40,580 nucleotides of DNA from Blautia sp. (lineage in GTDB: Bacteria > Bacillota > Clostridia > Lachnospirales > Lachnospiraceae): contig JALEHU010000017.1 of the NCBI GenBank assembly GCA_022770365.1, positions 1-40,580 on the forward strand, read 5' to 3'. The notes beneath the pieces are model-generated. The model saw only the letters and a program-made list of their open reading frames with translations, was not told the DNA's origin and made no database searches. The translations under genes were made by a program, and so were the position numbers. Positions 14,606-29,815 of the stretch are shown here, in pieces (within the stretch, counting starts at the first letter, position 1; each line of letters starts with the position of its first letter).

Positions 14606-15538
14606 TCAGCATATCTTCAGCAGTGAATTCAGTTCTTCTGTGAGATAAGTGAAATATTTCTGAGCCAGACTGCTGAGGATATAATTGTTTTTATGGATGT
14701 ATCCAAGATGTAGTTGACCGATATCTTCATTGAGCGGTCTGGCGATTATTTCACCGGTACCTTTGTGAAAACTATCGGCATTGCTGTTGGTGAGATCCGG
14801 ACCGATACTGAAGCAGTCTGTTTTGCGTACAAGTGCTATTTTTGTACATCTGTCTGAAACATGCATATTCTTGTTCAGAATGGTATAGATCAGTAATTCT
14901 TCAGAAAGGGGAGAGATTTCCGTTTCATCATCATAGGTGACAAAAGGATAATCTTCCAGATCTTTAATAGAAATCAGATCTTTTGATGCAAGAGGATGTT
15001 CTTTGCGCAGAAATACATAATTCTGAAGCTGTGCGATTTCGTGGAAATTCATATCCATTGCAGTAAGCTGCGTCTGAAAGGTGTTCAGCTGGGAATTCTG
15101 AAGCGCAACAATTCCAAGCTCACTTCTGCCACTATATACTTCGTTTAAAACAGAAAGAGTATCACATTCCCGGAGTGCCATGTCAAAGGACGACAGATCC
15201 AGATCATTCAGAAAGCTGGTAAATGAACGGACAACGAATGGCAGGTGTTGCGCGGAAATGGAAAAACGTATGGGCAATGATTTGCGGGATGCGTACCGCT
15301 GTTCAAGGTAACGAGTTCTGTCAACAATGTCTTTGGCATATCTTATGAAATCTTCCCCGTCAAGAGTCAGAGAAACACCCCGGTTGGTTCTGTGAAATAG
15401 AGTAATTCCAAGATCCTGTTCCACTTCTTTTACAGCAGTGGACAAAGTAGACTGGGATATGAAAAGCTTTTTAGCTGCCTGTGAAAAAGAACCGCAGTTT
15501 GAAATTTCAATCATATATTTTAGGTTTTGTAAAGTCAT
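14606..15538 (-). CDS. LysR family transcriptional regulator
   Basis: A 310-residue LysR protein: winged helix-turn-helix at 1-60 (NCGSFSQAAKKLFISQSTLS and the wing LGITLFHRTNRGVSLT), a linker helix, and a type 2 periplasmic-like effector domain at about 90-300. Effector unknown. It is divergent from the riboswitch-led nitrogenase-like operon and shares a 470-bp intergenic region, so control of that operon is plausible, in the usual LysR arrangement. The ATG is preceded by CAGGAGA. Repeated TTATAAAAG sequences just upstream may be its binding sites. Its 3' end abuts the decayed ATPase gene. Confidence 0.9.
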   Translation of the reverse strand: MTLQNLKYMIEISNCGSFSQAAKKLFISQSTLSTAVKEVEQDLGITLFHRTNRGVSLTLDGEDFIRYAKDIVDRTRYLEQRYASRKSLPIRFSISAQHLPFVVRSFTSFLNDLDLSSFDMALRECDTLSVLNEVYSGRSELGIVALQNSQLNTFQTQLTAMDMNFHEIAQLQNYVFLRKEHPLASKDLISIKDLEDYPFVTYDDETEISPLSEELLIYTILNKNMHVSDRCTKIALVRKTDCFSIGPDLTNSNADSFHKGTGEIIARPLNEDIGQLHLGYIHKNNYILSSLAQKYFTYLTEELNSLLKIC

Positions 15539-15641: not shown

Positions 15642-15670
15642 TTGATTCTATAAGGTTTGTATGATATATT
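15642..15670 (+). promoter_or_regulatory. Promoter of the nitrogenase-like operon
   Basis: TTGATT (15642-15647) and TATATT (15665-15670) are spaced by 17 nt. The predicted start, near 15677, leaves about 59 nt before the first stem of the cobalamin riboswitch. Confidence 0.55.
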
Positions 15671-15735: not shown

Positions 15736-15877
15736 ATGAAATATTTTATGGAAACCGGTCAGAAGCCGGTGCGGTGCTGCCACTGTAGGACGGAGCCGGG
15801 ATAAACGACACTGAAGAGAATCTTTGGGAAGTCGCCCGCAGGCGTTGATGTCAAGCCAGGATACTTGAATATTTCAT
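15736..15877 (+). promoter_or_regulatory. Cobalamin riboswitch 1
   Basis: Features of the cobalamin aptamer are visible in order: a closing P1 stem (15736-15745 with 15868-15877, 10 bp), the GCCACTG core at about 15769-15775, and a B12-box variant AAGCCAGGATACTTG at 15853-15867 just before the 3' half of P1. Two intrinsic terminators follow before the first gene, fitting transcriptional shut-off when a cobalamin binds. The CTTTGT at 15884 could pair with ACAAAG at 15917 and compete with the first terminator. Which cobalamin form it binds cannot be read directly. Confidence 0.88.
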
Positions 15878-15918
15878 AGGATCTCTTTGTCTGACAGGTC
15901 ATTGGACAGAGGGAAAAC

Positions 15919-15942
15919 AAAGGAAGGAATGTTCCTTTTTTT
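15919..15942 (+). terminator. Riboswitch 1 expression-platform terminator, first
   Basis: AAAGGAA and TTCCTTT form a 7-bp stem around a 6-nt loop, followed by T. It is 42 nt after the aptamer. Confidence 0.65.
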
Positions 15943-15948
15943 GTGTAC

Positions 15949-15979
15949 CCCTTTTCCAATATTGGAAAAGGGTTTTTTT
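15949..15979 (+). terminator. Riboswitch 1 expression-platform terminator, second
   Basis: A strong 10-bp stem, extensible to a 12-bp palindrome (15949-15972), is followed by seven T. It sits 30 nt before the ATG of the first binding protein. Confidence 0.82.
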
Positions 15980-16008
15980 GACCTCAAAAAAGAAAGTGAG
16001 GAAAGAAT

Positions 16009-17097
16009 ATGAACAAAAGAACAGTAAGAAAAACAATTGCATCTGTAATAGCGGCTACTTTGGCAGTGACAGCGTCAGTACCGGTTTTTGCAGAAAGTGA
16101 GGAGAACACATCTTCAGAAATACGTCAGGTAACGGATGCAGCCGGTAATGTGGTAGAGGTGCCGGCAGATATTTCCAAAATTGCAGTTACTCCCCTTCCA
16201 TGGTCATCAGTCATTTTTGCAATCGATGGAACGTCTGAACGTATGACATCAGTAAATCCGGGTGCGATGACTGCTTATACCGGTCATTTTTTTGAAAAGC
16301 TCGATTCTCATTATGGCGAACTGGATACATCAAATATAGGCAAGGATTTTTCCATAAATATGGAGGCACTGGCAAGTGACGGTGTACAGGCCTGCGTAAT
16401 CTGGGACTATCAGACAGATGAGGCAAAGCAGCTCTCTGATATTGGGATTACCCCTGTTATGGTAAAAAATGAAACGGTAGAAGAACTGCAGGAGAGCTTC
16501 CGTGCAATAGGAGAATTGCTGGGAAAAGAAGAACGGGCACAGGAATTTATAGATCTTTACGGTGAAACATATGATGAAATTAAATCTTATCAGGATCAGG
16601 TTGCTGAAGCAGAGAAGCCAAAAGTTCTGTATCTTCGTAATTCCGAACTGAAATTACAGGGTAATGACAACTTTATTAAAGAAGCAATGGAAATGGCCGG
16701 CGCTGATAATGTCGCCGCAGATGCATCGGATATTTCCATGGAAGAAATACTGGAAATCAATCCTGACATCATTTTCCTCAGCTGGTTTGATGGCTTTACA
16801 CCTGATGATCTGTACGAAAACCGTATTGACGGACAGGATTGGAGTACAGTTAATGCAGTGATCAATAAAAAAGTTTACAAAACACCGCTTGGTATTTACC
16901 GCTGGGATGCACCGGGGGTTGAAACACCTCTTATGATGAAGTGGCTTGCTGCCATGATTCAGCCTGAGATTTTTGCAGATATTGATATGAAACATGAAGT
17001 AACGGATTATTTCCAGGATTATTTTGAATATTCCGTCACAGATGAAGATTACGCACAGATTATGTGTGATGCGGAAAATACGAACAGCGTAAAATAA
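16009..17097 (+). CDS. ABC transporter substrate-binding protein 1 (BtuF/FhuD/FepB fold)
   Basis: A 362-residue extracytoplasmic binding protein of the PF01497 type, which captures corrinoids, haem or iron chelates. A Sec signal peptide (residues 1-28, ending VPVFA) is followed by the family start RQVTDAAGNVVEVP and two lobes joined by a long helix. The signal lacks a lipobox cysteine, unusual for a binding protein in a monoderm. The C-terminal block GQDWS...VYK.PLGIYRWDA is shared with the second binding protein at 21694, so the two are paralogues. It is the first gene after cobalamin riboswitch 1, which favours a corrinoid-related ligand, unproven. Confidence 0.88.
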   Translation: MNKRTVRKTIASVIAATLAVTASVPVFAESEENTSSEIRQVTDAAGNVVEVPADISKIAVTPLPWSSVIFAIDGTSERMTSVNPGAMTAYTGHFFEKLDSHYGELDTSNIGKDFSINMEALASDGVQACVIWDYQTDEAKQLSDIGITPVMVKNETVEELQESFRAIGELLGKEERAQEFIDLYGETYDEIKSYQDQVAEAEKPKVLYLRNSELKLQGNDNFIKEAMEMAGADNVAADASDISMEEILEINPDIIFLSWFDGFTPDDLYENRIDGQDWSTVNAVINKKVYKTPLGIYRWDAPGVETPLMMKWLAAMIQPEIFADIDMKHEVTDYFQDYFEYSVTDEDYAQIMCDAENTNSVK

Positions 17098-17108
17098 GAG
17101 GGCAGTGA

Positions 17109-18137
17109 ATGAATGATCATAAGATAAAAAAGCATTCTTACGGTATTCTGCTGACAGGAATGATTGCAGCGATGCTGGCTCTGACTGTTATAGCGACAGG
17201 AGTGGGGAGATATTACATCTCCCCTCTTAATGTAATGAAAATTCTCTTATCAGGAATTTTGGATATCCCCGTTTCATGGGAAGCACAGGCAGAAAGCGTG
17301 ATATTTACACTTCGTCTCCCCCGTATTCTGTCTGCTCTTCTGGTTGGAATGGCATTGTCTTTGTCCGGGGCTTCTTATCAGGGAGTGTTTAAAAATCCTC
17401 TTGTGGCACCTGATATGCTCGGTGTATCAGCAGGAGCCTGTGTAGGAGCATCAACTGCAATCCTTTTTCATGCCAGTCAGCTGGGAATACAGGTGGCTGC
17501 TTTTGCCGGGGGGATCCTGGCAGTTGCAGCTGCAACGACAATTCCCCGGGTGATCAGAAATAATTCTATGATGACACTGGTATTGGCAGGCGTTATTGTC
17601 AGTGGTCTTATGAATTCCATACTCGGACTGCTGAAATATCTGGCAGACCCGGATACTCAGCTGGCTTCCATCACACACTGGCAGCTTGGAAGTCTTGCCG
17701 CCTCCGTATGGAGGGATATCATCTATATCGGACCTCCGATTATAGCAGCGGCATTTTTTCTGATCATGTCCAGATGGAGAATCAATATCCTGTCCCTTGG
17801 GGAAAATGAGGCAAAGTCTCTGGGAACGGATATAAAAAAAGCAAGAGGGCTTGTGATTATCTGTGCTACGATTCTTACAGCAAGCGCTGTATGTATCAGC
17901 GGAACGATCGGCTGGATCGGTCTTGTGATTCCTCATCTCGGGCGTATGCTGGTGGGGCCGGACAACCGCAAACTGATTCCGGTATCGGCGGTTTTGGGAG
18001 CTGCTTTCTTATTACTGATCGATACACTGGCTCGTGTTTTGACAAGTGCGGAGCTGCCTCTCAGTATCCTGACCGGAATAATTGGAGCACCTTTTTATTT
18101 TTATTTATTACTGAAGCAGAGGATGAAGCTGTCATGA
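17109..18137 (+). CDS. FecCD/BtuC-family permease 1
   Basis: A 342-residue inner-membrane permease with about ten helices, the usual size for BtuC, FhuB-half or FecCD proteins. Family landmarks are LRLPRILSALLVGMALSLSG, YQGVFKNPLVAPDMLGVSAG, WQLGSLAA and the coupling segment GWIGLVIPHLGRMLVGPDNR that contacts the ATPase. It starts 11 nt after the binding protein, and its stop overlaps the ATPase start (ATGA), so the three make one importer. The ligand is unknown; context suggests corrinoid or a related chelate. Confidence 0.93.
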   Translation: MNDHKIKKHSYGILLTGMIAAMLALTVIATGVGRYYISPLNVMKILLSGILDIPVSWEAQAESVIFTLRLPRILSALLVGMALSLSGASYQGVFKNPLVAPDMLGVSAGACVGASTAILFHASQLGIQVAAFAGGILAVAAATTIPRVIRNNSMMTLVLAGVIVSGLMNSILGLLKYLADPDTQLASITHWQLGSLAASVWRDIIYIGPPIIAAAFFLIMSRWRINILSLGENEAKSLGTDIKKARGLVIICATILTASAVCISGTIGWIGLVIPHLGRMLVGPDNRKLIPVSAVLGAAFLLLIDTLARVLTSAELPLSILTGIIGAPFYFYLLLKQRMKLS

Positions 18138-18922
18138 TATTGGATGTTAGGAATCTGTCTTTTGGTTACCATAAAGATCGTATTTTGTTTAGAAATGTTA
18201 ATTTTTCAGTAGAGAAAGGAGAAGTTTTCAGTATCCTGGGATCTAATGGAATAGGAAAATCCACACTGTTAAATTGTATAGCAAACCTTCTGACACCTTT
18301 TGAGGGAGAAATCAGCCTTAATGGAGTTCCTATGAAAAACATGGATCTGAAAGAAATTGCAAAAACAATCGGTTACGTGCCGCAGATGCATGATGTTGCT
18401 TATGCATATGAAGTCAGAGATTATATTGTAATGGGACGAGCTCCTTATCTGGGAATGTTTGGAAAACCATCAGAAGAAGATTATCGGCTGGCAGATAAAA
18501 CAATGGACGAGCTGGGAATTTCTCATCTGGCAGGACGGGCATATACGGAATTAAGCGGAGGTGAACGCCAGCAGGTTTCCATAGCAAGGGCCATTGTGCA
18601 GCAGCCGGATATTATTATCCTTGATGAACCGACCAATCATCTGGATTATGGAAATCAGCTGCGAATGATTCATATGATACGCAAACTGGCGCAGAGCGGT
18701 TATGGAGTGATAATCACAAGCCATATGCCGGATCATGTACTGCTTTTGGATGGCAACGTAGGAATTCTGGGAGATGACGGACAGCTGCGTGTTGGGACAA
18801 CCAGAGAAATTATGACGAAAGAAAATCTGGAAGAATTATATCATGTGGAGATTTTTATGATACATGTTGATGAAGTAGGACGGGATGTCTGTGTTGCAGG
18901 AAAAGCAGAAGATATGAAATAG
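18134..18922 (+). CDS. ABC transporter ATPase 1 (BtuD/FhuC-type)
   Basis: A 262-residue cytosolic ATPase of a metal-chelate or corrinoid importer. Walker A is GSNGIGKST, the signature LSGGERQQVSIARA, Walker B IIILDEPTNHLD, and the switch histidine follows in IITSHMPDH. I start the gene at ATG 18134, overlapping the permease stop by 4 nt; the open frame extends upstream but only inside the permease gene. It is followed after 44 nt by the NifH-like gene with its own ribosome site. Confidence 0.93.
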   Translation: MILDVRNLSFGYHKDRILFRNVNFSVEKGEVFSILGSNGIGKSTLLNCIANLLTPFEGEISLNGVPMKNMDLKEIAKTIGYVPQMHDVAYAYEVRDYIVMGRAPYLGMFGKPSEEDYRLADKTMDELGISHLAGRAYTELSGGERQQVSIARAIVQQPDIIILDEPTNHLDYGNQLRMIHMIRKLAQSGYGVIITSHMPDHVLLLDGNVGILGDDGQLRVGTTREIMTKENLEELYHVEIFMIHVDEVGRDVCVAGKAEDMK

Positions 18923-18966
18923 AGTGCCGGTCATAAGATATGTATTTTGGGGCAGGGAGGAACCTG

Positions 18967-19818
18967 ATGAAAAAAATTGCTTTTTACGGCAAGGGAGGTA
19001 TTGGAAAATCAACGATAGCAGCCAATATCTCTGCTTTATATTCCGCAGAAGGCGGAAAAGTGCTGCATATAGGATGTGATCCCAAAGCTGATTCCACCAG
19101 GTTGTTAATGAGGAGAAGAATCCCGACCGTACTGGAGCAGCTGGAAAAGCTGAATGATGGCCTGACGGAAGGTGATATTCTTTTTGAAGGAAAACATGGT
19201 GTCTGGTGTGCAGAAGCAGGAGGACCGCAGGCTGGTATGGGATGTGCAGGACTTGGAATTACTTCTGCAGTAAATGAGCTGGAAAGACTGGGGATCATGT
19301 CCGGAAGCTGGGATATGATTGTTTATGATGTTTTAGGTGATGTAGTCTGCGGAGGTTTTTCGGTTCCTATGAGGAAGCATTATGCAGATCAGATTTATAT
19401 TGTGACATCAGCAGATTATATGTCACTTTATGCTGCCAATAATATACTGAAAGGGTGCAGGCATTATTCCGGCAAAGACAGAAATCTGGCTGCAGGTCTG
19501 ATATTAAATCATATTAAAAATAATCAGGAAATGATGATAGGCTGCAGGTTTGCAGACCGAACAGGAATTCCTGTTGCGGCATGCCTCAGAGAAAGCAGTG
19601 AAATGCAGGCGGCAGATTATAAGAATGCTCTTTTTACAGAAGTTTTTCCGGAAGGAGAAAACGCGATGGAAATTCGTTTTCTGCTTCAGCGAATACTGGA
19701 ATATAATGAAGAAACTGATACCGGATATAGGTCTTACGGGGAACAGGAAATACATCCTATGGATGAAATGCAGATAGAGGGATTTCGAAAAGAGATTTTA
19801 TATGAATACAAAATGTGA
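18967..19818 (+). CDS. NifH-like (nitrogenase iron protein family) ATPase
   Basis: A 283-residue homologue of NifH/BchL/CfbC: a homodimeric ATPase that passes low-potential electrons from a bridging [4Fe-4S] cluster to a component 1 protein. Walker A is YGKGGIGKST (7-16). Both bridging cysteines are kept, C93 in AGMGCAGLGI and C128 in DVLGDVVCGGF (switch II). The Arg that is ADP-ribosylated in nitrogen fixers is Leu here. No nitrogenase genes (nifK, E, N, B) are nearby, so this is a nitrogenase-like reductase component. ATG 18967 is preceded by GGGAGG; ATG 18940 has no ribosome site. Its end overlaps the next gene by 17 nt. Confidence 0.93.
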   Translation: MKKIAFYGKGGIGKSTIAANISALYSAEGGKVLHIGCDPKADSTRLLMRRRIPTVLEQLEKLNDGLTEGDILFEGKHGVWCAEAGGPQAGMGCAGLGITSAVNELERLGIMSGSWDMIVYDVLGDVVCGGFSVPMRKHYADQIYIVTSADYMSLYAANNILKGCRHYSGKDRNLAAGLILNHIKNNQEMMIGCRFADRTGIPVAACLRESSEMQAADYKNALFTEVFPEGENAMEIRFLLQRILEYNEETDTGYRSYGEQEIHPMDEMQIEGFRKEILYEYKM

Positions 19819-21634
19819 AATAGAACAGGTGATGATATCTGATCGGGAAATGGAACATAATGCGGCATCTTTGATTTTTGAGCAGGATGGTATCGTTCTT
19901 GTTGCCGTTGGTTCTCTGGCTTGTGTCAGGTCTCTGTGGTTTCAGGCATATAGGAGAGGCAGACTTGCGCAGTTTAGGGGCTGTGCATTGCCTTCCTGGA
20001 ATTATGCGGCAGGAAAAAATGCGGATGTGATCCGTGAAATAATAAAGGAAGCAGCACAATACACAGATACAAAAGGTATTATTGTTTATGCATCCTGCAT
20101 GGAGTATCTGACCCAGTGGGAGCCGGACACAGAAAAAGTTATTTGCGGAGAAAAAAACATTCCCGTAAAAGTTCTGTTTCGCGGTCCACTGACAAAGAGA
20201 AGCGGTAATCCGGTGAAACATCTGGAAGGACTGTTTGCTGAGATGGGAATCCCGGTGAAAAATGATCTTGAAAATAATCTGGAAAGAGAACTGGACGAAA
20301 GAAAACCGGAAAAAGGAAAGCAGGACTGCATGAATCAGAAGTCAGAGATTGATGAGCAGAGACTTGATATACTTCCGCCTGCAGCACCTGATTTTTCGGG
20401 AGTGATGGATTTTCTGTCCGGAATAGACTGCAATGCAGTGCTGATCAGTCCCGGAGGCTGCAAAAGCTGTATTGAGCATGTGGACGGACAGATAGGAAAT
20501 GTGCAGGATAACTGCCAGTACGGAACCAGATTCACAGACCTGTCAGTAACAGGAGGATGTGAAGAAGCTCTTGTGGATGTGATAGACGGGATGTTCTGCG
20601 ATTCGAAGCCTGTATTTCTGACCGGCAGTGCTGTTATGCAGACAATAGGTTTTGATGATGAATATCTGATAGAACAATTGTCTGCCAGGGGAAGAAAATC
20701 TCTGTTTTTTAAGAGCAGCGGCTTTGAAGGCTGTCCGGAGGCTGTTGATTCTGCGATGATGAAGGTGGGAAAGCTGTATTTCCAAAATCCGGGAAAATGT
20801 CAGAAGAATCTGGTACTGATTACGGGGTATACGAGTCTGGCAACAGGCGGTAAAGAAACACTGCAGCCGGTTATTGACAGACTGAAGAAAAATAGCATGG
20901 AAGTGCTGTATCTGGGAGAAAAATGGCGGACAGAAAAAAATCCCCTGCCTGCTGTAATCTGGATGGTATCAGCAGAAGGAATCTCTGTTACAAAATGGAT
21001 GCAGGAAGAATATGGGATTCCATGTGTCATTGGACGTAATCTGGAGAAAACCTATGCAGATGAACTTGCGGACGAGATCATAGCATATGCAGAAATGCCG
21101 GACACAGGAAGTGCATATAGAGATGGATCAGACACAGAAATTGCATGCAAAGATAGATCCGATGCAGCAATTGCATGTAAGGACAGACCGGAGAAAGGAA
21201 CTTTACATAAATACTGGGGTGAGATTAATAAAATTTCATTTCCGGAAAATACTGCCATGCTAAATAAAAAGGCTGAATCTTCCAAAAAAACAGTGTGGAT
21301 TTTGGGAGAGCCTGTTCTTACCATCAGTTTATATCGTTTTTGTAATCTGTATTACAAAGAAATGGAGTACAGAACTGCTATATATATACCAACATCAGGA
21401 ATGAAGCGGGTTTATGGGCAGCTTTCTGATGACTGGATTTACCTGCATTCACAGGAAGAAATGGCAGAAATAATATGTGAAGGAACTGTTATTGCAGATG
21501 AATTTATAATCCGGTTTTTACGGAACCGACACCCGGATATAAAAGGAATTACTGTCAGATTTCCTGAAATCAGCGGTAACCGCAGTACAAAATGCGGAAA
21601 ATGCAAAGAAGACATACAGAATCATTATTCATGA
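19802..21634 (+). CDS. Nitrogenase component 1-like protein (NifD/NifK superfamily) with extra N-terminal domain
   Basis: A 610-residue partner of the NifH-like protein. Residues about 190-420 look like the first two domains of a component 1 subunit: ISPGGCKSCIEH (C220, C223), TDLSVTGGCEEAL, then LTGSAVMQTIGFDDE, SSGFEG, and a second Rossmann part. A third part starts near 498 (KKTVWILGEPVLT). The first 155 residues resemble another component 1 first domain, with VAVGSLACVRS (C41), C61 and YASCMEYL (C99) in the order of the P-cluster-type cysteines. The protein may thus combine two subunit-like halves. A linker at about 440-465 holds three 30-nt repeats, and the C-terminus has CGKC (598-601). 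The substrate is unknown. Tetrapyrrole or corrinoid reduction, by analogy with CfbCD and BchLNB, is my inference. Confidence 0.8.
   Translation: MNTKCEIEQVMISDREMEHNAASLIFEQDGIVLVAVGSLACVRSLWFQAYRRGRLAQFRGCALPSWNYAAGKNADVIREIIKEAAQYTDTKGIIVYASCMEYLTQWEPDTEKVICGEKNIPVKVLFRGPLTKRSGNPVKHLEGLFAEMGIPVKNDLENNLERELDERKPEKGKQDCMNQKSEIDEQRLDILPPAAPDFSGVMDFLSGIDCNAVLISPGGCKSCIEHVDGQIGNVQDNCQYGTRFTDLSVTGGCEEALVDVIDGMFCDSKPVFLTGSAVMQTIGFDDEYLIEQLSARGRKSLFFKSSGFEGCPEAVDSAMMKVGKLYFQNPGKCQKNLVLITGYTSLATGGKETLQPVIDRLKKNSMEVLYLGEKWRTEKNPLPAVIWMVSAEGISVTKWMQEEYGIPCVIGRNLEKTYADELADEIIAYAEMPDTGSAYRDGSDTEIACKDRSDAAIACKDRPEKGTLHKYWGEINKISFPENTAMLNKKAESSKKTVWILGEPVLTISLYRFCNLYYKEMEYRTAIYIPTSGMKRVYGQLSDDWIYLHSQEEMAEIICEGTVIADEFIIRFLRNRHPDIKGITVRFPEISGNRSTKCGKCKEDIQNHYS
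21109..21192 (+). repeat. Three degenerate 30-nt in-frame repeats in the component 1-like gene
   Basis: Units beginning GACACAGGAAGTGCAT, GACACAGAAATTGCAT and GATGCAGCAATTGCAT follow each other at 30-nt spacing, encoding variants of S(D)xxIACKDRSD. They sit in a predicted flexible linker, so they are likely a recent in-frame expansion with little effect on the domains. Confidence 0.75.
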
Positions 21635-21665
21635 TATGTAAAATACTGGATTCAGTATTTACATA
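21635..21665. other. Hairpin between component 1-like gene and second importer
   Basis: TATGTAAAATACTG (21635-21648) pairs with CAGTATTTACATA (21653-21665), with one bulged A, around a GATT loop. No T run follows, so it is more likely an mRNA processing or stability element than a terminator. It may set different levels for upstream and downstream genes. Confidence 0.6.
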
Positions 21666-21693
21666 AACATAACTTAACAGGAGGATAAGAAAA

Positions 21694-22806
21694 ATGAAAC
21701 AAAAAATCATGAAAAGAATTGCGGTCGCAGCATTATCAGCCAGCATGGCATTATCGGGTTCTGCCGGTTATGTATTTGCCTCTGAAGCTGAAGAAACAAA
21801 AACAGTTGTAGATTCTATGGAAAATGAGGTTGTAATTCCTGCGGAAATTGACAGCCTGGCTATTTTGCCTATGCCGTGGATTTCGGTTGTATATGCATTA
21901 AACGGAAGCGGAGATATTATTACGGGTATGCAGCAGGTGGCAAAGAATTCATACAACACCAGTATGCTAAAAGTTCTTGCTCCGGAGCTTGAGGATACCA
22001 ATACCTCATTTTTTGCGGACGGAGAGTTTAATTTTGAAGAGCTGGCCAAAATTGATCCGGATGTTATGATACTGTTTGAAAGCCAAAGCAAATTTATTGA
22101 TAAATTAAACGAAGTTGGTATTCCTGCTGTAACAATTAAATATGCAGATTCTTTTGATACATTATGGAATGACTTCAGCATTATTGGTGATGTATTAAGT
22201 AAAGAAGAAAGGGCACAATCATTTGTTGATTATCAGAAAGAAGATATTGCGTATCTGGAAAGCAAAGCGGATCAGCTTGATAAAGATAATCCGGTCAAGG
22301 TTTTGCAGCTGTACATGAGCGATCTTCAGGTTTGTGATAACAGTGGTACATTTAATGCAGCAGTTAACCATGCAGGCGGAGTAAATGTTGCTCAGACAAC
22401 ACTGGAAGCTTCCTCAGAAGTTCAGGTTAACATGGAACAGATACTGGCATGGAATCCGGACGTTATTCTGTTATCAAATTTTGACGATATGGTTCCGGAT
22501 GATTTTTACAGTAATTCATTTGACGGCCAGGATTGGAGTCAGGTAAAAGCTGTCCAGGATCACAGAGTTTATAAGATTCCTCAGGGTATTTACCGTTGGG
22601 ATGCAGACTGCCCATGTACGGAAACGACTCTTTGTGCAAAATGGATGGCACGAGTGATTAATCCGGATATATTCGATGATTTTGATCTGAAGCAGGATGT
22701 GAAAGACTTTTATAAAGATTTCTTTGATTACGAGCTTTCAGATGAAGAAATCGATACTATTCTGGCAGCGGAGGCAAATGCAGATTCCGTACAGTTATTT
22801 GACTGA
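21694..22806 (+). CDS. ABC transporter substrate-binding protein 2 (BtuF/FhuD/FepB fold)
   Basis: A 370-residue exported binding protein, paralogous to the one at 16009. A Sec signal peptide covers about residues 1-30 (ending GYVFAS) and again lacks a lipobox cysteine. Family parts are KTVVDSMENEVVIP, FNFEELAKIDPDVMILF and MEQILAWNPDVILL. The C-terminal block GQDWSQVKAV...VYKIPQGIYRWDA is nearly the same as in the first protein, but a CPCTETTLC insert (three cysteines) replaces PGVETPLM. Those cysteines could touch a metal or ligand. A strong AGGAGG site precedes the ATG. Ligand unknown. Confidence 0.87.
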   Translation: MKQKIMKRIAVAALSASMALSGSAGYVFASEAEETKTVVDSMENEVVIPAEIDSLAILPMPWISVVYALNGSGDIITGMQQVAKNSYNTSMLKVLAPELEDTNTSFFADGEFNFEELAKIDPDVMILFESQSKFIDKLNEVGIPAVTIKYADSFDTLWNDFSIIGDVLSKEERAQSFVDYQKEDIAYLESKADQLDKDNPVKVLQLYMSDLQVCDNSGTFNAAVNHAGGVNVAQTTLEASSEVQVNMEQILAWNPDVILLSNFDDMVPDDFYSNSFDGQDWSQVKAVQDHRVYKIPQGIYRWDADCPCTETTLCAKWMARVINPDIFDDFDLKQDVKDFYKDFFDYELSDEEIDTILAAEANADSVQLFD

Positions 22807-22812
22807 TAATGT

Positions 22813-23826
22813 ATGTCTATGAAAAAGAAGAAAAAATCATTAATTAAATGGTCAGTATTGTGGATCTGTTTTGGAGCAGTGGCATTCGTGTCACTGCTTC
22901 TGGGCAGATATATGGTAGCTCCGGGTCAGGTGTTTGATATCTTAGTCAGAGCTGTGACAGGTAACTTATGCGGAGAAATTGAAGAATCTGTTATAATAAA
23001 TATCCGTCTTCCAAGAATTCTTATAACATTACTGATAGGGGCAGGAATGGCAGCTTCGGGAACAGCATTTCAGGGTTTGTTTCAAAATCCGCTGGTCAGT
23101 CCGGATGTATTGGGCGTAAGCTCGGGAGCTGCTTTTGGGGCTGTTCTTGGAATTATTGTTTCAGGACTTGGTTATTTTTCTATGGCGCTTGCGATGATAT
23201 GTGGAGTTCTCAGTGTTGCAATGACTTATATACTTTCAAAGGTGAAAGGACAAAGCACGGTATTGTCATTGGTTCTATCCGGAATGATCGTGCAGGCATT
23301 AATGAATGCGCTGGTATCATTGTTGAAGTATACAGCAGATCCTTACAGTAAACTTCCGGCTATTACGTATTGGCTGATGGGCAGTTTCTCTACTGCCAGT
23401 TATAATGATCTGAAGCTTGTGGGAATTCCGGTTGCAGTAAGTTTGCTGATTCTTTTTCTGCTTCGGTGGCGGATTAATATACTTTCACTTGGAGATGAGG
23501 AGGCCGCTGCACTGGGAGTAAATCCAGTCAGAATCAGAGTACTGATTATTGCGTCATCAACTGTAATTTCCGCATGCAGTGTAACAATAGCCGGGGTTAT
23601 TGGATGGGTAGGACTTGTTATTCCCCATATTACACGAATGATTTTCGGAGTGGATCACAAAGATATTATTCCCGCATCGATGCTACTTGGAGGAATTTAT
23701 CTTACAGTAATTGATCTGATAGCCCGTTCTGCAATGGAATCGGAAATACCGATAGGTATTCTGACAGCATTGATTGGTGCACCTGTTTTTGCAGTATTAT
23801 TTAAAAAAACAGGGGGTGGTTCCTGA
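22813..23826 (+). CDS. FecCD/BtuC-family permease 2
   Basis: A 337-residue ten-helix permease, paralogous to that at 17109. Landmarks are IRLPRILITLLIGAGMAASG, FQGLFQNPLVSPDVLGVSSG, YWLMGSFSTASYNDL and GWVGLVIPHITRMIFGVDHK. It begins 6 nt after the binding protein and overlaps the ATPase by 1 nt (TGATG). Two ATGs (22813 and 22819) are in frame; neither has a clear ribosome site, which suggests translational coupling. Confidence 0.93.
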   Translation: MSMKKKKKSLIKWSVLWICFGAVAFVSLLLGRYMVAPGQVFDILVRAVTGNLCGEIEESVIINIRLPRILITLLIGAGMAASGTAFQGLFQNPLVSPDVLGVSSGAAFGAVLGIIVSGLGYFSMALAMICGVLSVAMTYILSKVKGQSTVLSLVLSGMIVQALMNALVSLLKYTADPYSKLPAITYWLMGSFSTASYNDLKLVGIPVAVSLLILFLLRWRINILSLGDEEAAALGVNPVRIRVLIIASSTVISACSVTIAGVIGWVGLVIPHITRMIFGVDHKDIIPASMLLGGIYLTVIDLIARSAMESEIPIGILTALIGAPVFAVLFKKTGGGS

Positions 23827-24611
23827 TGCTGGAAATTAAGGGAGGATGTTTTGGATATATAAAAGGTGAGGACATACTTAGAGATATCAGTTTTTCTCTT
23901 GAAGACGGGAAAATCATGACGGTTCTGGGCCAAAATGGAATCGGGAAAACAACTTTGCTGAAATGCATAGCCGGAATTCTGAAATGGACAAAAGGGAATG
24001 CCTTTATAGACGGTAATAAGATCAGGGAAACAAAGGATATTAAAGGTCTGGGGTATGTACCGCAGGCGCATCCCATGTCTTTTTCATATACAGTAAGGCA
24101 GATTGTGATGATGGGAAGAGCGTCATTTATTCATACATTTGCAATACCATCTTTAAAGGACAAAGAAATAGTGGAAGATGCAATGAAGGAAGTAGGAATT
24201 GCAGAATTGGCCGATCGCCCGTGTAATACTCTGAGCGGTGGGCAGATACAGCTTGCTTTTATTGCCAGAGCACTTGTATCGGATCCAAAGATCATGATTC
24301 TGGACGAGCCGGAATCTCACTTGGATTTTAAGAATCAGTTCCTGATTTTAAAACTGATAGAAGATTTATCGAGAAAAAAGAAGATGTCCTGTATTATCAA
24401 TACACATTTTCCGGAACATGCATTGTTGATTTCAGACAAAACACTTATTCTGGGAAGAGAAAAATACATTTTTGGAAATACAGAGGAAATTGTTACTGAG
24501 AAGAATATAGCGGATTTCTTTGATATCCGGGCACGAATTATTGATGTGCCTGATACGCAGGGGCATCGGAAAGCATTTGTTGTGACAGATGTCATAAAAG
24601 ACAGAGTATAA
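23826..24611 (+). CDS. ABC transporter ATPase 2 (BtuD/FhuC-type)
   Basis: A 261-residue ATPase closing the second importer. Walker A is GQNGIGKTT, the signature LSGGQIQLAFIARA (Gln-Ile-Gln-Leu in place of the usual GExQxV), Walker B IMILDEPESHLD, and the switch histidine lies in INTHFPEH. The start overlaps the permease stop by one base. No terminator is visible between it and the next promoter, so transcripts may run into the second riboswitch leader. Confidence 0.92.
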   Translation: MLEIKGGCFGYIKGEDILRDISFSLEDGKIMTVLGQNGIGKTTLLKCIAGILKWTKGNAFIDGNKIRETKDIKGLGYVPQAHPMSFSYTVRQIVMMGRASFIHTFAIPSLKDKEIVEDAMKEVGIAELADRPCNTLSGGQIQLAFIARALVSDPKIMILDEPESHLDFKNQFLILKLIEDLSRKKKMSCIINTHFPEHALLISDKTLILGREKYIFGNTEEIVTEKNIADFFDIRARIIDVPDTQGHRKAFVVTDVIKDRV

Positions 24612-24673: not shown

Positions 24674-24697
24674 AATGATGTGTAATTGAATATTGCA

Positions 24698-24869
24698 GTA
24701 TCAGGTGCAGAGTTCTTTTCAGGGACTCTGAAGAGGGAATCAGGTGAGAATCCTGAGCGAACTGGTCACTGTATGCAGGGAGCGAGCTTCGATAACCATT
24801 GCATGACCCATAAAGATGTGAGAAGGTGAAGTGAGCATTGATCTGCAAGTCAGGAAACCTGCCTGGTAC
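24698..24869 (+). promoter_or_regulatory. Cobalamin riboswitch 2
   Basis: The classic cobalamin core is present: GAGGGAATCAGGTGAGAATC with TCCTGAGCG and then GGTCACTGT (24732-24773), and a near-consensus B12 box AAGTCAGGAAACCTGCC at 24847-24863. P1 is formed by 24698-24704 with 24863-24869, including a G-U pair. It matches the consensus better than riboswitch 1. A terminator lies at 24955 and further hairpins lie before the [FeFe] hydrogenase gene, which is the only gene that follows directly. Confidence 0.92.
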
Positions 24870-24954
24870 ATGAGATGTGCTCCAGATACAGCGCAAACAT
24901 CCAGCCGGGTCATACGACAGAAACAGGAACAGAAGAGAAGAATGATCCGATAGA

Positions 24955-25169: not shown

Positions 25170-26699
25170 ATGAGAGGTGTTTATACTTCAGTCAATGACA
25201 TCCGGAAGCGCGTTTATGCGGAAGTAGCAAGATTATCGTATGACTATCAGGATGGAGACTTGTCTCAAATGGAACAGATTCCATACAGAATCATTCCGGG
25301 AGAAGTCTCTACATATCGGGAAAGCGTATTTCTGGAGAGAGCAATTGTTAAGGAGAGAATGCGTCTTGCCATGGGGCTTCCGCTGCGTGCGGCTTCCGAA
25401 CATGCTCCCGTATCAGAAGGAGCACTGGAATGTGTGAGACCGGAGAAATATTATCAGCCTCCGCTGATCAATATTATCAAGTTTGCCTGCCACAAATGTC
25501 CGGATAATGTAGTAAAAGTAACAGATGCCTGCCAGGGCTGTCTGGCACATCCGTGCAAAGAGGTCTGCCCCAAAAAAGCCGTTTCCTTTGAAAATGGAAA
25601 ATCAGTGATCAATCAGGAAAAATGTATCAAGTGCGGAAAATGCGTCAGTGCATGTGCATATGGAGCTGTCGTAAAACTGGAGCGTCCCTGCGCAAGAGCC
25701 TGCGGGATGGATGCCATTGGTTCCGATGAGTTCGGAAGAGCGGACATTGATCAGGAAAAATGCGTGTCCTGCGGAATGTGCCTTGCAAACTGTCCGTTTG
25801 GCGCGATTGCAGATAAAGCACAGATTTTCCAGACTATTCAGGCAATCAAAAGTGATACGCCGGTGTATGCGGCAATTGCACCTGCTGTGACAGGCCAGTT
25901 TGGTCCGAAGATGACACCGGATAAGATACGTTCTGCATTTCAGGCACTCGGTTTTACGGATGTTGTGGAAGTAGCAATCGGTGCAGATCTCTGTACCATG
26001 GAAGAAGCCAGAGATTTTGTGGAGGAAGTTCCGGAAAAACTGCCCTTTATGGCGACTTCCTGCTGTCCGGCATGGTCCATGATGGCAAAAAAACTGTTTC
26101 CTGAGTACAGCGAATGCATTTCCATGGCACTGACACCCATGGTGCTGACAGGAAGACTGATCAAAAAGCAGCATCCTGGCTGTAAAGTGGCTTTTATCGG
26201 ACCCTGTGCAGCCAAAAAACTGGAAGCGGGCAGAAGGACGATACGCAGTGATATTGACTTTGTGCTGACGTTTGAAGAAGTAATGGGAATGTTTGAAGCG
26301 AAGAAAATCAATTTTACGAAGCTTGAAGAACAGCACAGCATGCATGGAGCAAGTGCTGACGGCAGGGGCTTTGCAGTCAGCGGAGGTGTTGCAGAAGCTG
26401 TGGTAAACTGTATTAAAGAGCTTTACCCGGATAAAGAAGTAAAAGTGGAAAATGCGGAAGGCCTTGCAAACTGCAGGAAGCTTCTGACTATGGCTAAAGC
26501 AGGAAAATATAACGGCTATCTTCTGGAAGGAATGGCATGCCCCGGCGGATGCGTGGCAGGAGCAGGAACAATACAGCCGATTGCAAAATCCACAGCAGCA
26601 GTGAAACTCCGGAAAAAAACATCAACCCATGCACATGCCATACAGAGTAATTATAAGGATTTACTGAAACAGCTGGAAGAAATAGATAAAAGCATATGA
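25170..26699 (+). CDS. Monomeric [FeFe] hydrogenase, group B
   Basis: Cytosolic [FeFe] hydrogenase (509 residues) that interconverts protons and H2, or senses redox state. The H-cluster motifs are complete: TSCCPAW (C298, C299), IGPCAAKKLE (C346) and EGMACPGGCVAGAG (C457, C461). Upstream lie a Cys-rich segment (about 107-133) and two [4Fe-4S] ferredoxin-type motifs (CIKCGKCVSAC and CVSCGMCLANCPFG). The N-terminal VNDIRKRVYAEVARL start and overall size fit group B enzymes common in Clostridia, whose role is poorly known. No hydE, F, G maturation genes are in the window. It follows cobalamin riboswitch 2. AAAGGAGAA precedes the ATG. Confidence 0.93.
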   Translation: MRGVYTSVNDIRKRVYAEVARLSYDYQDGDLSQMEQIPYRIIPGEVSTYRESVFLERAIVKERMRLAMGLPLRAASEHAPVSEGALECVRPEKYYQPPLINIIKFACHKCPDNVVKVTDACQGCLAHPCKEVCPKKAVSFENGKSVINQEKCIKCGKCVSACAYGAVVKLERPCARACGMDAIGSDEFGRADIDQEKCVSCGMCLANCPFGAIADKAQIFQTIQAIKSDTPVYAAIAPAVTGQFGPKMTPDKIRSAFQALGFTDVVEVAIGADLCTMEEARDFVEEVPEKLPFMATSCCPAWSMMAKKLFPEYSECISMALTPMVLTGRLIKKQHPGCKVAFIGPCAAKKLEAGRRTIRSDIDFVLTFEEVMGMFEAKKINFTKLEEQHSMHGASADGRGFAVSGGVAEAVVNCIKELYPDKEVKVENAEGLANCRKLLTMAKAGKYNGYLLEGMACPGGCVAGAGTIQPIAKSTAAVKLRKKTSTHAHAIQSNYKDLLKQLEEIDKSI

Positions 26700-26914
26700 G
26701 TAAGTGTTCTGTCAGGCGGATATGACAGGCTGTAAAAATGATAAAATAGTATACTTTCTTTGTAAAAATCCGGAAGAATAAACGGAATATGTTCTTTATA
26801 ATATAAATGGAAATTAACACGCGGAAAAAATACGTAAAAAAACGTAAACATAAAACAAAAACAAGTGGATTGCGGAGTCTGCCTGATTATCTTTCAAGAA
26901 AGGAATCAAATATC

Positions 26915-28282
26915 ATGAAACAGAAAGCTATGGAAATGAAACTTGTTGTAAGACCGCTTGTGGGATGTCTGACCCACACACATTTCTGGGAAGGTCCGTG
27001 CAGGGCAGGCCGTTATGAAGACATGACAGTGGAAGCGGAAACAGAAGCAGCTGATCAGGCATTTAAAGCCTCAGTGGAAGGTTTGAATGATGTGATCAGC
27101 GAGGTAGAGTTTAAAGAACCGCTTGATGTACGGTATAATGAAAGTTTTACTGTGGATAAGGAATTGTTTGATAAAATCGGAGAGAATCTGGATGAAATTG
27201 ACTGTTTCCTCTGTATGGGATGGAGAATCCCGAAACTGGAACGTTACAGAAAACCGGTGGTTATCTGGCAGAATGGAAACGAGGGTATTGATTTTGCAGC
27301 ATATTGCCGTTCTATTGGAGTTGAAGCTTATGTATGTATGGATCTTCAGGACGTAAATGAGATCATGCATATTTTATGGGTTCGTAAAGCGGTGCAAAAT
27401 ACAAGAGCACTTGTTCTTACTGCAGGATCCCAGCCTACCTTCGGTATTCAGAGCCTGATCCGGGATCCTGAAATCCTGAGACAGCGCTATGGTATGGAAG
27501 TTGTGAAACTGCCTTTTACCTCTATTTTTAAATATATGGATGAGATTACAGATGAAGAAGCCAAACCAATTGCGGACAGGCTTATAGCAGGATCTTCTGA
27601 TACACAGGTAAATACTGACTGGTTTATCAATGATATCAAATATTATCTGGCAGCAAAGAAAATGATGGATATTTATGACTGCAACGCTTTTTCAACAGCA
27701 TGTCATGAATTGTGTACTACGGAAATTCCGCAGAATCGCAAATTTACTCCATGTATGTGCCACTCGATCATGAAAGATGAAGGAATCCCAAGTGGCTGCG
27801 AGGAAGACCTGAACGCACTTATGGCAATGGTGATTATGCAGTATGCTGCAAAGAGGCCTGCATTTATGGGAAATCCAAATCATGAGACAGACGAACTTCT
27901 CCGCATTCATCATGCTGTTCCTGCATTATGTATGAATGGTTATGGTACAAAACCGCTGGAGTATAAGCTCTGGGCATTCACCGGTCAGGGATTCGGCGGC
28001 AAGCTCCAGGTGGATTTCACAGAGAATGCAGATGACTATGTGACACTCGGCAGATTTAATCCTGCAGGTGACACCATGTGCATTAAGACCGGAGAGGTCA
28101 TACGGTCTGAATATGCAGCAACCTACTGCAGCCCGTATTATTATATTAAGATGGATGATGCAAGGGAATATATGCATAATCTGGCTGGATTCGGACATCA
28201 CCAGGTCCTGGTTTTCGGTGATTACAGTAAAATGCTGAAGAAGATAGCGAAAGTGATGAATTTTAATATTCTGGAAGGCTGA
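26915..28282 (+). CDS. L-fucose/L-arabinose isomerase family protein
   Basis: A 455-residue protein of the FucI/AraA fold. Metal-dependent members interconvert aldoses and ketoses. The C-terminal domain is recognisable: TPCMCHSIMKDEGIPSGCEE holds a likely metal-binding glutamate, IHHAVPAL a likely metal-binding histidine, then FTGQGFGGKLQVDF and GRFNPAGDTMCIKTG. The substrate cannot be told, and no sugar kinase or aldolase is near, so a fucose role is not supported by context. I chose ATG 26915 (AAAGGA upstream), not ATG 26807, whose lysine-rich leader is atypical. A TATAAT at 26797 may be a -10, so this may be its own unit. Confidence 0.75.
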   Translation: MKQKAMEMKLVVRPLVGCLTHTHFWEGPCRAGRYEDMTVEAETEAADQAFKASVEGLNDVISEVEFKEPLDVRYNESFTVDKELFDKIGENLDEIDCFLCMGWRIPKLERYRKPVVIWQNGNEGIDFAAYCRSIGVEAYVCMDLQDVNEIMHILWVRKAVQNTRALVLTAGSQPTFGIQSLIRDPEILRQRYGMEVVKLPFTSIFKYMDEITDEEAKPIADRLIAGSSDTQVNTDWFINDIKYYLAAKKMMDIYDCNAFSTACHELCTTEIPQNRKFTPCMCHSIMKDEGIPSGCEEDLNALMAMVIMQYAAKRPAFMGNPNHETDELLRIHHAVPALCMNGYGTKPLEYKLWAFTGQGFGGKLQVDFTENADDYVTLGRFNPAGDTMCIKTGEVIRSEYAATYCSPYYYIKMDDAREYMHNLAGFGHHQVLVFGDYSKMLKKIAKVMNFNILEG

Positions 28283-28303
28283 TATAAGAGGAGAGAGGGA
28301 AAA

Positions 28304-29458
28304 GTGATCTATTTAAATAATGCGGCCACCTCGTATCCAAAACCTTCCTGCGTAAAAGAAGCTTTGCAGGCGTACCTGAACAGTACGCCTGCTTCGCAGT
28401 TTCGGGGAAGTGAGCAGATCGGAAGACCCGATACAGAGGAAATATGCAGAAAAAACCTGGGGAAAATCCTTGGTATTAAGGAAACGGGAAGAATCTATTT
28501 TTCTTCGGGTGCTACGGAAGCTCTGAATACCATTCTGTGCGGGATGTCAGATCTGCTGGAGGATGGTGAGATATTAGTGACACAGACAGAACATAACAGT
28601 GTTCTGCGGCCGATCCTGAATCATAAATGCCTGAAGAAATTTCAGATGGTGACAGTTCCGTGTACTATGGACGGTGAAGTGACGGCGGAAGCTCTGGAAA
28701 AGTCTGTAACAGACCGAACGCGGGCGATTATTGTGAATCATTGTTCCAACGTTACGGGAAGAGTTCAGGATATGAACAGGATCGGAGAATTCGCCCGCAG
28801 ACATCATCTGTTCTTTGCGGCGGATGTATCACAGAGCGCGGGGTGCCTTCCTGTCTGTGCAGATGAATGGGGCGTGGATGCGCTGGCATTTACCGGACAT
28901 AAGAGCTTAATGGGAATTCCGGGAACCGGAGGGTATTATATCAGTCCTGTGTGGAAAATGAGACCTTTGCAGTATGGCGGAACAGGCAGAAACAGTTCAC
29001 AGCTTATTTACGAAGAGGGCGATTATGAATATGAGACAGGGACACAGAACCTTCCGGGAATTGCAGCTCTAGGTGCCGCAACCGAATATATACTGGAAAC
29101 CGGTCTACAGACGATCATGGAACGGGAAGAGCATCTCATGAGGATTCTTTATGAAGGACTTGGCGCTATGAGCGGCATTACGGTATATGGCAGCAGAGAG
29201 ACCTGCAAAGGACCTGTGATGAGCTTTAATTTCAAAAATTTGTCGCCATCAGATGCCGCTTATATTTTCCAGAATATATATGGAATAACGGTGCGGACCG
29301 GTCTTCATTGTTCTCCGCTGATCCATCAGGCAATGGGAACGGAAAAACAGGGTACCGTCAGAATCAGTATATCCTGTTTTACGACGGAAGAAGAGATTAT
29401 GGAATTTCTGAAGGCGGCAGGTCAGATGGCATGCGCCGGAATCGGAGAGAAAATATGA
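28304..29458 (+). CDS. Cysteine desulfurase-like class V aminotransferase (group II type)
   Basis: A 384-residue PLP enzyme. It has the start MIYLNNAATSYPKP, the PLP-lysine K200 in TGHKSLMG, and C336 in RTGLHCSP at the place of the sulfur-carrying cysteine, as in the SufS/CsdA group. It differs from the thiI-linked enzyme at 3077, which has the long-loop form. The start is GTG, with GAGAGGGA upstream, 21 nt after the isomerase. The next gene overlaps it by 4 nt, which suggests a dedicated partner. It may supply sulfur to a particular Fe-S protein or to a selenium/sulfur reaction; neither is proven. Confidence 0.88.
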   Translation: MIYLNNAATSYPKPSCVKEALQAYLNSTPASQFRGSEQIGRPDTEEICRKNLGKILGIKETGRIYFSSGATEALNTILCGMSDLLEDGEILVTQTEHNSVLRPILNHKCLKKFQMVTVPCTMDGEVTAEALEKSVTDRTRAIIVNHCSNVTGRVQDMNRIGEFARRHHLFFAADVSQSAGCLPVCADEWGVDALAFTGHKSLMGIPGTGGYYISPVWKMRPLQYGGTGRNSSQLIYEEGDYEYETGTQNLPGIAALGAATEYILETGLQTIMEREEHLMRILYEGLGAMSGITVYGSRETCKGPVMSFNFKNLSPSDAAYIFQNIYGITVRTGLHCSPLIHQAMGTEKQGTVRISISCFTTEEEIMEFLKAAGQMACAGIGEKI

Positions 29459-29739
29459 GAATTACAGGAAAAATGGAATCCAGGGAAAAATGCGCCGAGT
29501 CGGGCTGGTTTGCCTGGGATTATCTGACAGATGATGCCATTGACAGAGATTTTATTCTGAGCCTTCGTCCATTAGGCGGATTTGTTTATCTTGATATGTT
29601 AAAAGAACCGTTTTTTAAAATAGAGAGCGACTATTATATGATCAAAGGAATCCAGGGAAGAAATTATTTCAGGATTGCTGTTCATGGGAAGCATGAAGAG
29701 AAACTCAGAGAAATAGAAGAATATCTGGAACAATATTAA
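29455..29739 (+). CDS. Small protein of unknown function paired with cysteine desulfurase
   Basis: I do not recognise this 94-residue protein. It is soluble, with no signal peptide or transmembrane helix, has one cysteine (C13) near the N-terminus, and a mixed alpha/beta pattern. The middle contains RPLGGFVYLDMLKEPFFKIE, and the C-terminus ends in a charged helix (KHEEKLREIEEYLEQY). Its ATG overlaps the desulfurase stop (ATGA), so it is translated with it. A sulfur acceptor or adapter role is a guess from this coupling alone. A frame upstream stays open to 29308 inside the desulfurase gene, but without a likely start. Confidence 0.7.
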   Translation: MRITGKMESREKCAESGWFAWDYLTDDAIDRDFILSLRPLGGFVYLDMLKEPFFKIESDYYMIKGIQGRNYFRIAVHGKHEEKLREIEEYLEQY

Positions 29740-29815
29740 CTGATAACAGCTGTGCAACGATGTCAAATATGCGAAACAGCTGATACTGTATATAAATTAT
29801 AAGGAGAGATGATTT

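Follow-up and report, generated by a model that had tools for sequence, protein, structure and literature searches.

Among the described relatives of nitrogenase, DPOR, COR and CfbCD act as tetrapyrrole reductases, and Mar and Isr are likewise nitrogenase-like (PMC11423573). In 2012, Dos Santos et al. described two-subunit NifH-A-B relatives that are encoded beside ATP-binding cassette (ABC) transporters and left them without a function, and cobalamin reduction was once proposed for NflD (PMC3464626). Here we analyse a locus of a Blautia sp. genome (contig JALEHU010000017.1 of assembly GCA_022770365.1, positions 1 to 40,580 of the forward strand; this whole stretch of 40,580 nucleotides is referred to as the window), in which a NifH-like protein and a single-chain component 1 are encoded behind a cobalamin riboswitch and between two FecCD-type importers. 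A first-pass annotation of the sequence knew of no described function for this arrangement. The A-B fusion together with the B12 control appears to be new; the two-subunit, ABC-linked relatives have been known since 2012 (PMC3464626). Among the matches listed in a literature search, the coverage of which mostly excluded subscription papers, there was no cobalamin-controlled or truncated, A-B-fused nitrogenase-like enzyme, and the word riboswitch is absent from the main text of PMC3464626.

Component 1 is a fusion of two subunit types

Eight genes lie on the + strand behind the aptamer, in the order substrate-binding protein (SBP1), FecCD permease, ATPase, NifH-like protein, component 1, second substrate-binding protein (SBP2), FecCD permease and ATPase; the riboswitch-led, same-strand order given by the first-pass annotation is borne out by the RF00174 and Pfam matches and by the coordinates. 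The NifH-like ATP-dependent reductase (18940..19818, +; Pfam Fer4_NifH, 1.6e-73) has a start that is possibly at 18967, and is followed by a component 1 of 610 residues (19802..21634, +). The pair had been taken for a two-gene reductase made of NifH-like and NifD/K-like proteins. The NifH-like assignment holds, but by profile comparison component 1 is not a free-standing D/K subunit; it is a fusion to which an A (NifD/E-side) subunit contributes just its cluster-binding domain and in which a B (NifK/N-side) subunit is present in full. The N-half scored 96.6% against the A profile (E 6e-10) and the C-half 100% against the B profile (E 2.6e-43), and fold comparisons add to this evidence; Pfam Oxidored_nitro covers residues 209-411 only (1.2e-9). 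The A-type half (about residues 21-133; 19862..20200, +), which carries Cys41, Cys61, Cys99 and an RGPxxKR motif, aligns just to residues 58-160 of the 436 in the A subunit and stops near residue 150, short of the D-type cofactor-holding domains. No FeMo-co-like cofactor is expected, since this half ends before the domains that would hold one. The B-type half (about residues 187-593; 20360..21580, +) carries Cys220 and Cys253.

An alignment of 14 fused proteins from the genomes described below showed that Cys41, Cys99 and Cys220 are invariant, Cys220 being the sole cysteine of the C-half kept in 14/14. Cys41 and Cys99 align with two NifD cysteines, which we take to be the second and third P-cluster cysteines, and Cys220 aligns with the single conserved cysteine of B subunits. 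Cys61 occurs in ten of the 14 proteins and Cys253 in nine, such that each protein has at least one of the two; Cys223 is present in 12 of the 14, and two extra cysteines fall within an insertion that is common to eight members of a second family and absent from the window protein. The RGPxxKR motif (residues 127-133) is invariant in all 14 and absent from four aligned A subunits. This cysteine pattern would fit one [4Fe-4S] cluster between the A and B parts, the fourth ligand of which is exchangeable.

Phylogenetic placement and comparison with known systems

In the NifH tree, the seven fused-type rows formed one clade (98/98) apart from NifH plus CfbC (98/90) and from other ABC-linked or Hyp-linked NifH, with BchL and BchX as long outgroup branches. 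In a quick tree of component 1, 13 fused C-halves formed one clade (100) that grouped with 17 of the 19 uncharacterised B subunits (99 by the Shimodaira–Hasegawa-like approximate likelihood ratio test; 30 rows) and lay apart from NifDKEN, BchNBYZ and CfbD, although the deep forks of this tree are weak and CfbD sits on long branches. By these trees, which did not include Mar or Isr, the system lies outside the Nif, Bch and Cfb groups; a phylogeny of both proteins against these groups and Mar was a check suggested by the first-pass annotation, and in these trees they fell inside no characterised group. The best NCBIfam model for the NifH-like protein was CfbC, at 270.3 of 402 bits and so below its cut-off, and the protein also scored below the cut-offs for BchL (184.9 of 345 bits) and BchX (163.4 of 331). 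A nitrogen-fixing nitrogenase was considered and rejected, as the nifD,K,E,N set is not present; because the genome, which is 85% complete, gives a single PF00148 match, no separate nifK/E/N-like gene was found, in agreement with the earlier reading.

CfbCD (NflHD) resembles the window system in combining a NifH-like protein with one component-1 gene, but CfbD is a single-type homodimer whereas here A and B are fused, and the NifH and component-1 rows cluster elsewhere. DPOR and COR (BchLNB, BchXYZ) are nitrogenase-like and carry out ATP-driven reduction of a tetrapyrrole; their N/Y and B/Z subunits, however, are separate and full-length, and their rows fall outside the fused clade. DPOR, COR and CfbCD are not known to use metal clusters other than [4Fe-4S]. 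The MarHDK/IsrHDK systems (group IV) share the component-1 fold, with 9fmg and 9d9u among the structure matches of the window protein, yet their D subunit has a cofactor domain, in which the Mar enzyme carries its cofactor, and this domain is absent from the fused protein. The ABC-linked NifH-A-B (NifHEN-like) systems likewise have a NifH-like protein and A and B subunits with two cysteines in A and one in B, an adjacent FecCD importer and the same SBP family, and the fused C-half joins their B clade. They differ in that their subunits are separate and complete, whereas here only the first domain of A is present, in one chain with B, and in that the fused type has a cobalamin riboswitch, a LysR-like gene and the extra Cys253 and/or Cys61.

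The non-fused relatives are themselves varied. NifH-A-B genes stand beside HypF/HypD-type genes in L009-L012, L014, L015, L040, L041, L082 and L084 (assigned by model in L015, otherwise by eye), in both same-genus and other genomes, and in some of these loci NifH is immediately preceded by a TM1266-like gene (by eye); near them, no NiFe hydrogenase was recognised. Maturation genes also lie beside NifH-A-B in L080 (HydF and a TM1266-type gene) and L083 (HydE), by model, and others by eye, including in L041; in L080 and L083 a FecCD importer is present as well. In addition to nif and CfbD, Methanospirillum stamsii (L042, L160, L161) has three or more nitrogenase-like systems linked to ABC transporters, and in one of them NifH and component 1 share a single open frame.

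Predicted riboswitch control and conserved neighbourhood

The aptamer (RF00174; 15705..15886, +) scored 67.9 bits (E 8.1e-15, full model 1-189) against a gathering threshold of 31.5, and an intrinsic terminator-like hairpin with a 10-pair stem and a T7 tail (15949..15972, +) precedes the first gene, which together support membership of the leader in the family. Because the terminator lies behind the aptamer, the riboswitch is predicted to shut the gene set off at ample B12 and to switch it on at B12 shortage.

The fused type was found in 14 genomes from two families. Only the window's own genome carried it among 61 relatives, as did five of 397 genomes of the family; at the level of the order the own genome stood alone at strong scores among 392, two more matches came from 391 genomes of the class, and a second family (f77) had it in eight of 40 genomes, including both class-level matches. 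Four carriers came from a scan of genome contigs, namely Robinsoniella peoriensis, Bilifractor porci, the Lachnospiraceae metagenome-assembled genome S19M_St_40 and strain TWA4; for the first three, the contigs are identical to those of G239, G299 and G118. A FecCD-type importer adjoins the fused gene in 14/14 loci, NifH in 13/14 (the exception being L037) and a LysR-like gene in 13/14 (the exception being L033; assigned by model in the window and by eye elsewhere), and RF00174 lies directly upstream in 12/14 (the window, L032, L034, L035, L077, L078 and L178-L183); these counts are not independent events, because many members are sister species. All 12 riboswitch loci have a terminator-like hairpin between aptamer and gene, compared with 22 of 600 random windows from the same loci by the same script, a lenient control because such windows are mostly coding; in four loci the hairpin sits just behind an over-called start codon. 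The first-pass annotation had held that homologues found routinely without transporters or riboswitches would speak against its reading, and it withstands this comparison because both are conserved. Of the eight-gene order, the conservation of which it proposed to check, importer 1 is kept in 14 loci and NifH in 13, but importer 2 was found in only one of the 14 loci, that of the window.

By comparison, an adjacent RF00174 was found in 0 of 27 scanned loci of non-fused relatives (L009-L012, L014, L015, L040-L049, L053, L079-L084, L155, L156, L160 and L161), with the start of the gene set in view in about 17; the front of the first gene set was out of view in L009, L010, L011, L015, L045, L047, L048, L049, L079 and L082. 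L047-L049 and L053 were assigned as relatives by tblastn match, with NifH-like frames in L049 and L053. The scan covered all 14 fused-type loci, and loci L013, L050-L052, L054, L055, L159 and L162 lay outside it. The RF00174 match in L009 stands next to a different gene, at a distance of about 8.6 kb from the nitrogenase-like ones, and was scored as not adjacent. Three fused-type loci have a further cobalamin riboswitch about 3.3-3.5 kb before the NifH-leading one, ahead of other genes (L077:5067-5225, L179:4984-5143, L181:5046-5204).

Importers

Importer 1 consists of SBP1 (16009..17097, +; Pfam Peripla_BP_2, 2.6e-20; nearest solved structure 4ovk, 7e-79), the permease PERM1 (17109..18137, +; Pfam FecCD, 1.9e-83) and the ATPase ATP1 (18134..18922, +, with its start at 18134; Pfam ABC_tran, 3.1e-36), and importer 2 of SBP2 (21694..22806, +; Peripla_BP_2, 6.5e-25), the FecCD-type permease PERM2 (22813..23826, +) and ATP2 (23826..24611, +; ABC_tran, 8.8e-32). 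All 14 fused-type importer-1 permeases formed one clade in the permease tree (100/100); PERM2 lay outside it and grouped, weakly, with importers of two-subunit systems (80/85). On the strength of this tree, importer 1 appears to have been inherited with the reductase and importer 2 to be a local addition.

The first-pass annotation had drawn on BtuCDF-like importers as a comparison, which holds only in part. The importers share with BtuCDF a FecCD permease, an ABC ATPase, a Peripla_BP_2 substrate-binding protein and a cobalamin riboswitch, but the permeases reach 224 of 461 and 192-200 of 334 bits in BtuC models, below the cut-offs, ATP1 falls below the curated BtuD cut-off, and neither SBP is specifically BtuF-like. 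A plain BtuCDF importer is not supported, the curated BtuF and BtuC cut-offs being missed by far. The nearest solved SBP structure is 4ovk, followed by HI_1472, presumably a molybdate/tungstate binder, and 4pag, and motifs such as G-x-Y-R are common to both SBPs and to three from two-subunit systems. Because these comparisons are not specifically BtuF-like, a cobalt or iron chelate is a candidate ligand as well.

A related system is encoded on a Sporomusa termitida plasmid (L155, NZ_CP036260.1), where NifH and two component-1 genes lie directly 3' of a FecCD-type importer and where the neighbourhood encodes an SBP, two permeases and an ATPase, together with an esterase-fold hydrolase and TonB-dependent receptors. 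This could possibly be a low-potential siderophore reductase, an example suggesting that relatives of the fused system may serve chelate uptake.

Possible corrinoid link and B12 background of the carriers

In L033, one of the two fused-type loci without a riboswitch, a gene between those for the ATPase and NifH (L033:11211-11912) encodes a protein of 233 residues, the C-half of which is the corrinoid-binding domain of the CFeSP large subunit (Pfam CdhD, 1.7e-11; NCBIfam AcsC-type model, 3e-26; Protein Data Bank entry 9fzy, 2.9e-18); it reaches 92 of 306 bits in the AcsC-type model because a single domain is present. The N-part gives a weak DUF3786 match (E 0.027), and a DUF3786 protein encoded 9 kb from the L038 fused gene matches this part only. 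A phmmer search of 1517 reading frames from 184 sequences found the corrinoid part in no locus other than L033 and its copies.

CbiC and CobS were present in all eight of the 14 carriers that were tested, as were matches to B12-binding domains, which ranged from 3 to 48. The window genome has seven RF00174 matches, a cbi cluster that includes a CbiJ-like fusion (by eye), another B12-controlled FecCD-type importer, and CbiM-type cobalt importer genes behind a cobalamin riboswitch (by eye). At a further cobalamin-riboswitch locus of this genome (L060:3024-4259 on contig C53, with L059:14372-17752), the first gene resembles a secreted cobalt chelatase (CbiK, 1.1e-71; signal sequence by eye) and is followed by surface-type genes and a FecCD-type importer on C53; a similar chelatase-like riboswitch locus was recognised by eye at L056:4314-5660 on contig C60.

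Proposed function and alternative explanations

We tentatively favour, at a likelihood that we place somewhat below an even chance, a B12-repressed, ATP-driven uptake-and-reduction system whose substrate would be an imported corrinoid or cobalt-tetrapyrrole. This choice of substrate is suggested by the B12 control, the corrinoid domain of L033 and the habit of cofactor-free nitrogenase relatives of acting on tetrapyrroles, and we infer, as the first-pass annotation did, corrinoid import and remodelling. The locus itself offers a riboswitch with its terminator, one dedicated importer, a NifH-like ATPase and a single-chain component 1, and the later steps are put conditionally. When cobalamin is low, the leader would be read through and the gene set made, and importer 1 would bring in a corrinoid or a close cobalt-tetrapyrrole precursor. 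After docking on the fused component 1, the NifH-like protein would spend ATP to pass electrons to one [4Fe-4S] cluster where the A and B parts meet; three ligands of this cluster would be Cys41, Cys99 and Cys220, and either Cys61 or Cys253 would be the fourth. The cluster would reduce the imported ligand directly, and the Co(II) or Co(I) product could lose its unwanted axial ligand and might then be adenosylated or loaded onto corrinoid proteins. Somewhat more doubtful is the specific claim that this is an undescribed nitrogenase-family enzyme for B12, in which NifH-type ATP hydrolysis would drive the super-reduction of an imported corrinoid or corrin precursor by a single-chain A-B component 1 under riboswitch control.

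Several observations weigh against a corrinoid substrate and B12 control and call for caution. L033 and L037 gave no RF00174 match in a scan of both loci even at E<=1, L037 is without an adjacent NifH, the terminator control is lenient, and in L034 the fused gene (L034:8752-9705) is broken off after the cluster half, although this locus does have the riboswitch, the importer genes and NifH. Of the 14 fused-type loci, a single one has the corrinoid-domain gene. Against the BtuF model the SBPs reach E-values of 5e-4 and 8e-5 (19-22 of 234 bits), an SBP profile search gave 4ovk at 9e-120 and HI_1472 at 4e-43 with BtuF only at 5e-11, and the same SBP family occurs in two-subunit systems that have no cobalamin riboswitch (L042, L043, L046). 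CobS was also present in four of five same-genus non-carriers tested, so B12 synthesis is not specific to carriers, and no gap in the window genome demands the fused system, since that genome already has a cbi cluster and another B12-controlled importer.

The main rival explanation, which we consider unlikely, is reductive metal release, in which importer 1 would take up a cobalt or iron chelate and the reductase would lower the metal, for example turning inert Co(III) into labile Co(II), to free it for corrin synthesis; the system would then come on at low B12 because cobalt is what is needed. Metal chelates are the typical cargo of FecCD importers, members of the SBP family occur in B12-controlled as well as in other systems, and the related plasmid system of Sporomusa termitida sits with TonB-dependent receptors, an importer and an esterase-fold hydrolase. 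The presence of CbiC in 8/8 carriers tested and the riboswitch-led CbiM-type genes would be in keeping with a demand for cobalt. The L033 corrinoid-binding domain, however, fits a corrinoid better, and inspection by eye of the first 40-50 residues of each frame revealed no genes for chelate synthesis beside the 14 loci.

A second alternative, which seems distinctly improbable, is a reductive activator with a RACo/RamA-like role that would take a corrinoid protein from Co(II) to Co(I), the importer merely belonging to the same regulon. The CFeSP-type corrinoid domain encoded in the L033 operon would suit such a role, as would the 48 and 26 B12-binding-domain matches in carriers G1030 and G1114; but the window genome has just three such matches (one of them below cut-off), shut-off at plentiful B12 would be unexpected for a reactivase, and the importer is adjacent in every locus.

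We give very little credence to a B12-independent stand-in for a B12-dependent enzyme, for example one that, like Mar, would provide methanethiol for methionine at times when MetH is short of B12. B12-independent isozymes are often found behind cobalamin riboswitches, yet the A-type half ends before the D-type cofactor-holding domains, Cys220 is the sole conserved cysteine of the C-half and a FecCD importer is unsuited to thioethers; that Mar and Isr are nitrogenase-like (PMC11423573) would speak for such a role. Equally improbable is a scaffold for metallocluster or cofactor assembly coupled to metal uptake: this has been proposed for ABC-linked and hydrogenase-maturation-linked relatives (PMC3464626), some non-fused systems have HydE, HydF, TM1266, HypF or HypD as neighbours (by model in L080, L083 and L015, others by eye), and in fused-type L183 genes that resemble NifX and Mrp (by eye) lie on the far side of the LysR gene, about 2-8 kb away from NifH, but inspection by eye of the 14 fused-type loci revealed no HydE/F/G or Hyp gene and the FeFe hydrogenase of the window is in a separate operon.

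Neighbouring operon and other features of the window

That hydrogenase operon (25170..31414, +) is headed by a second cobalamin riboswitch (24686..24880, +; RF00174, 94.1 bits), which the first-pass annotation missed; the riboswitch that it did report is present, and the second opens a further operon. The first gene encodes a group B [FeFe] hydrogenase (TIGR04105, 615 bits), and the operon also encodes a NapH/NosR-like FMN-binding membrane protein, with a weakly sugar-isomerase-like gene (22.9 of 700 bits), a gene of the cysteine desulfurase family and a small open reading frame among its later genes. It could possibly supply low-potential electrons to the reductase. On the other side of the gene set, a LysR-family regulator is encoded divergently (14606..15538, −; Pfam HTH_1, 2.3e-20; LysR_substrate, 2.3e-10). 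A promoter-like site 5' of the first riboswitch (15642..15670, +) matched 9/12 consensus positions in a scan, but is weak given that 29 such sites were seen in the region compared with 23.8 expected from shuffles.

Implications

Large nitrogenase-like clades have no assigned substrate, and the riboswitch is a rare built-in clue that ties one of them to the B12 economy and makes its substrate testable. If the proposed function is correct, corrin would be a further tetrapyrrole, after the chlorins and F430, on which relatives of nitrogenase act, and the system would represent a missing route by which anaerobes rescue corrinoids or cobalt with ATP-driven electrons. It would also present an A-type half pared down to its cluster domain alone, showing how little of the A-type subunit electron delivery needs, which would bear on the origin of nitrogenase.

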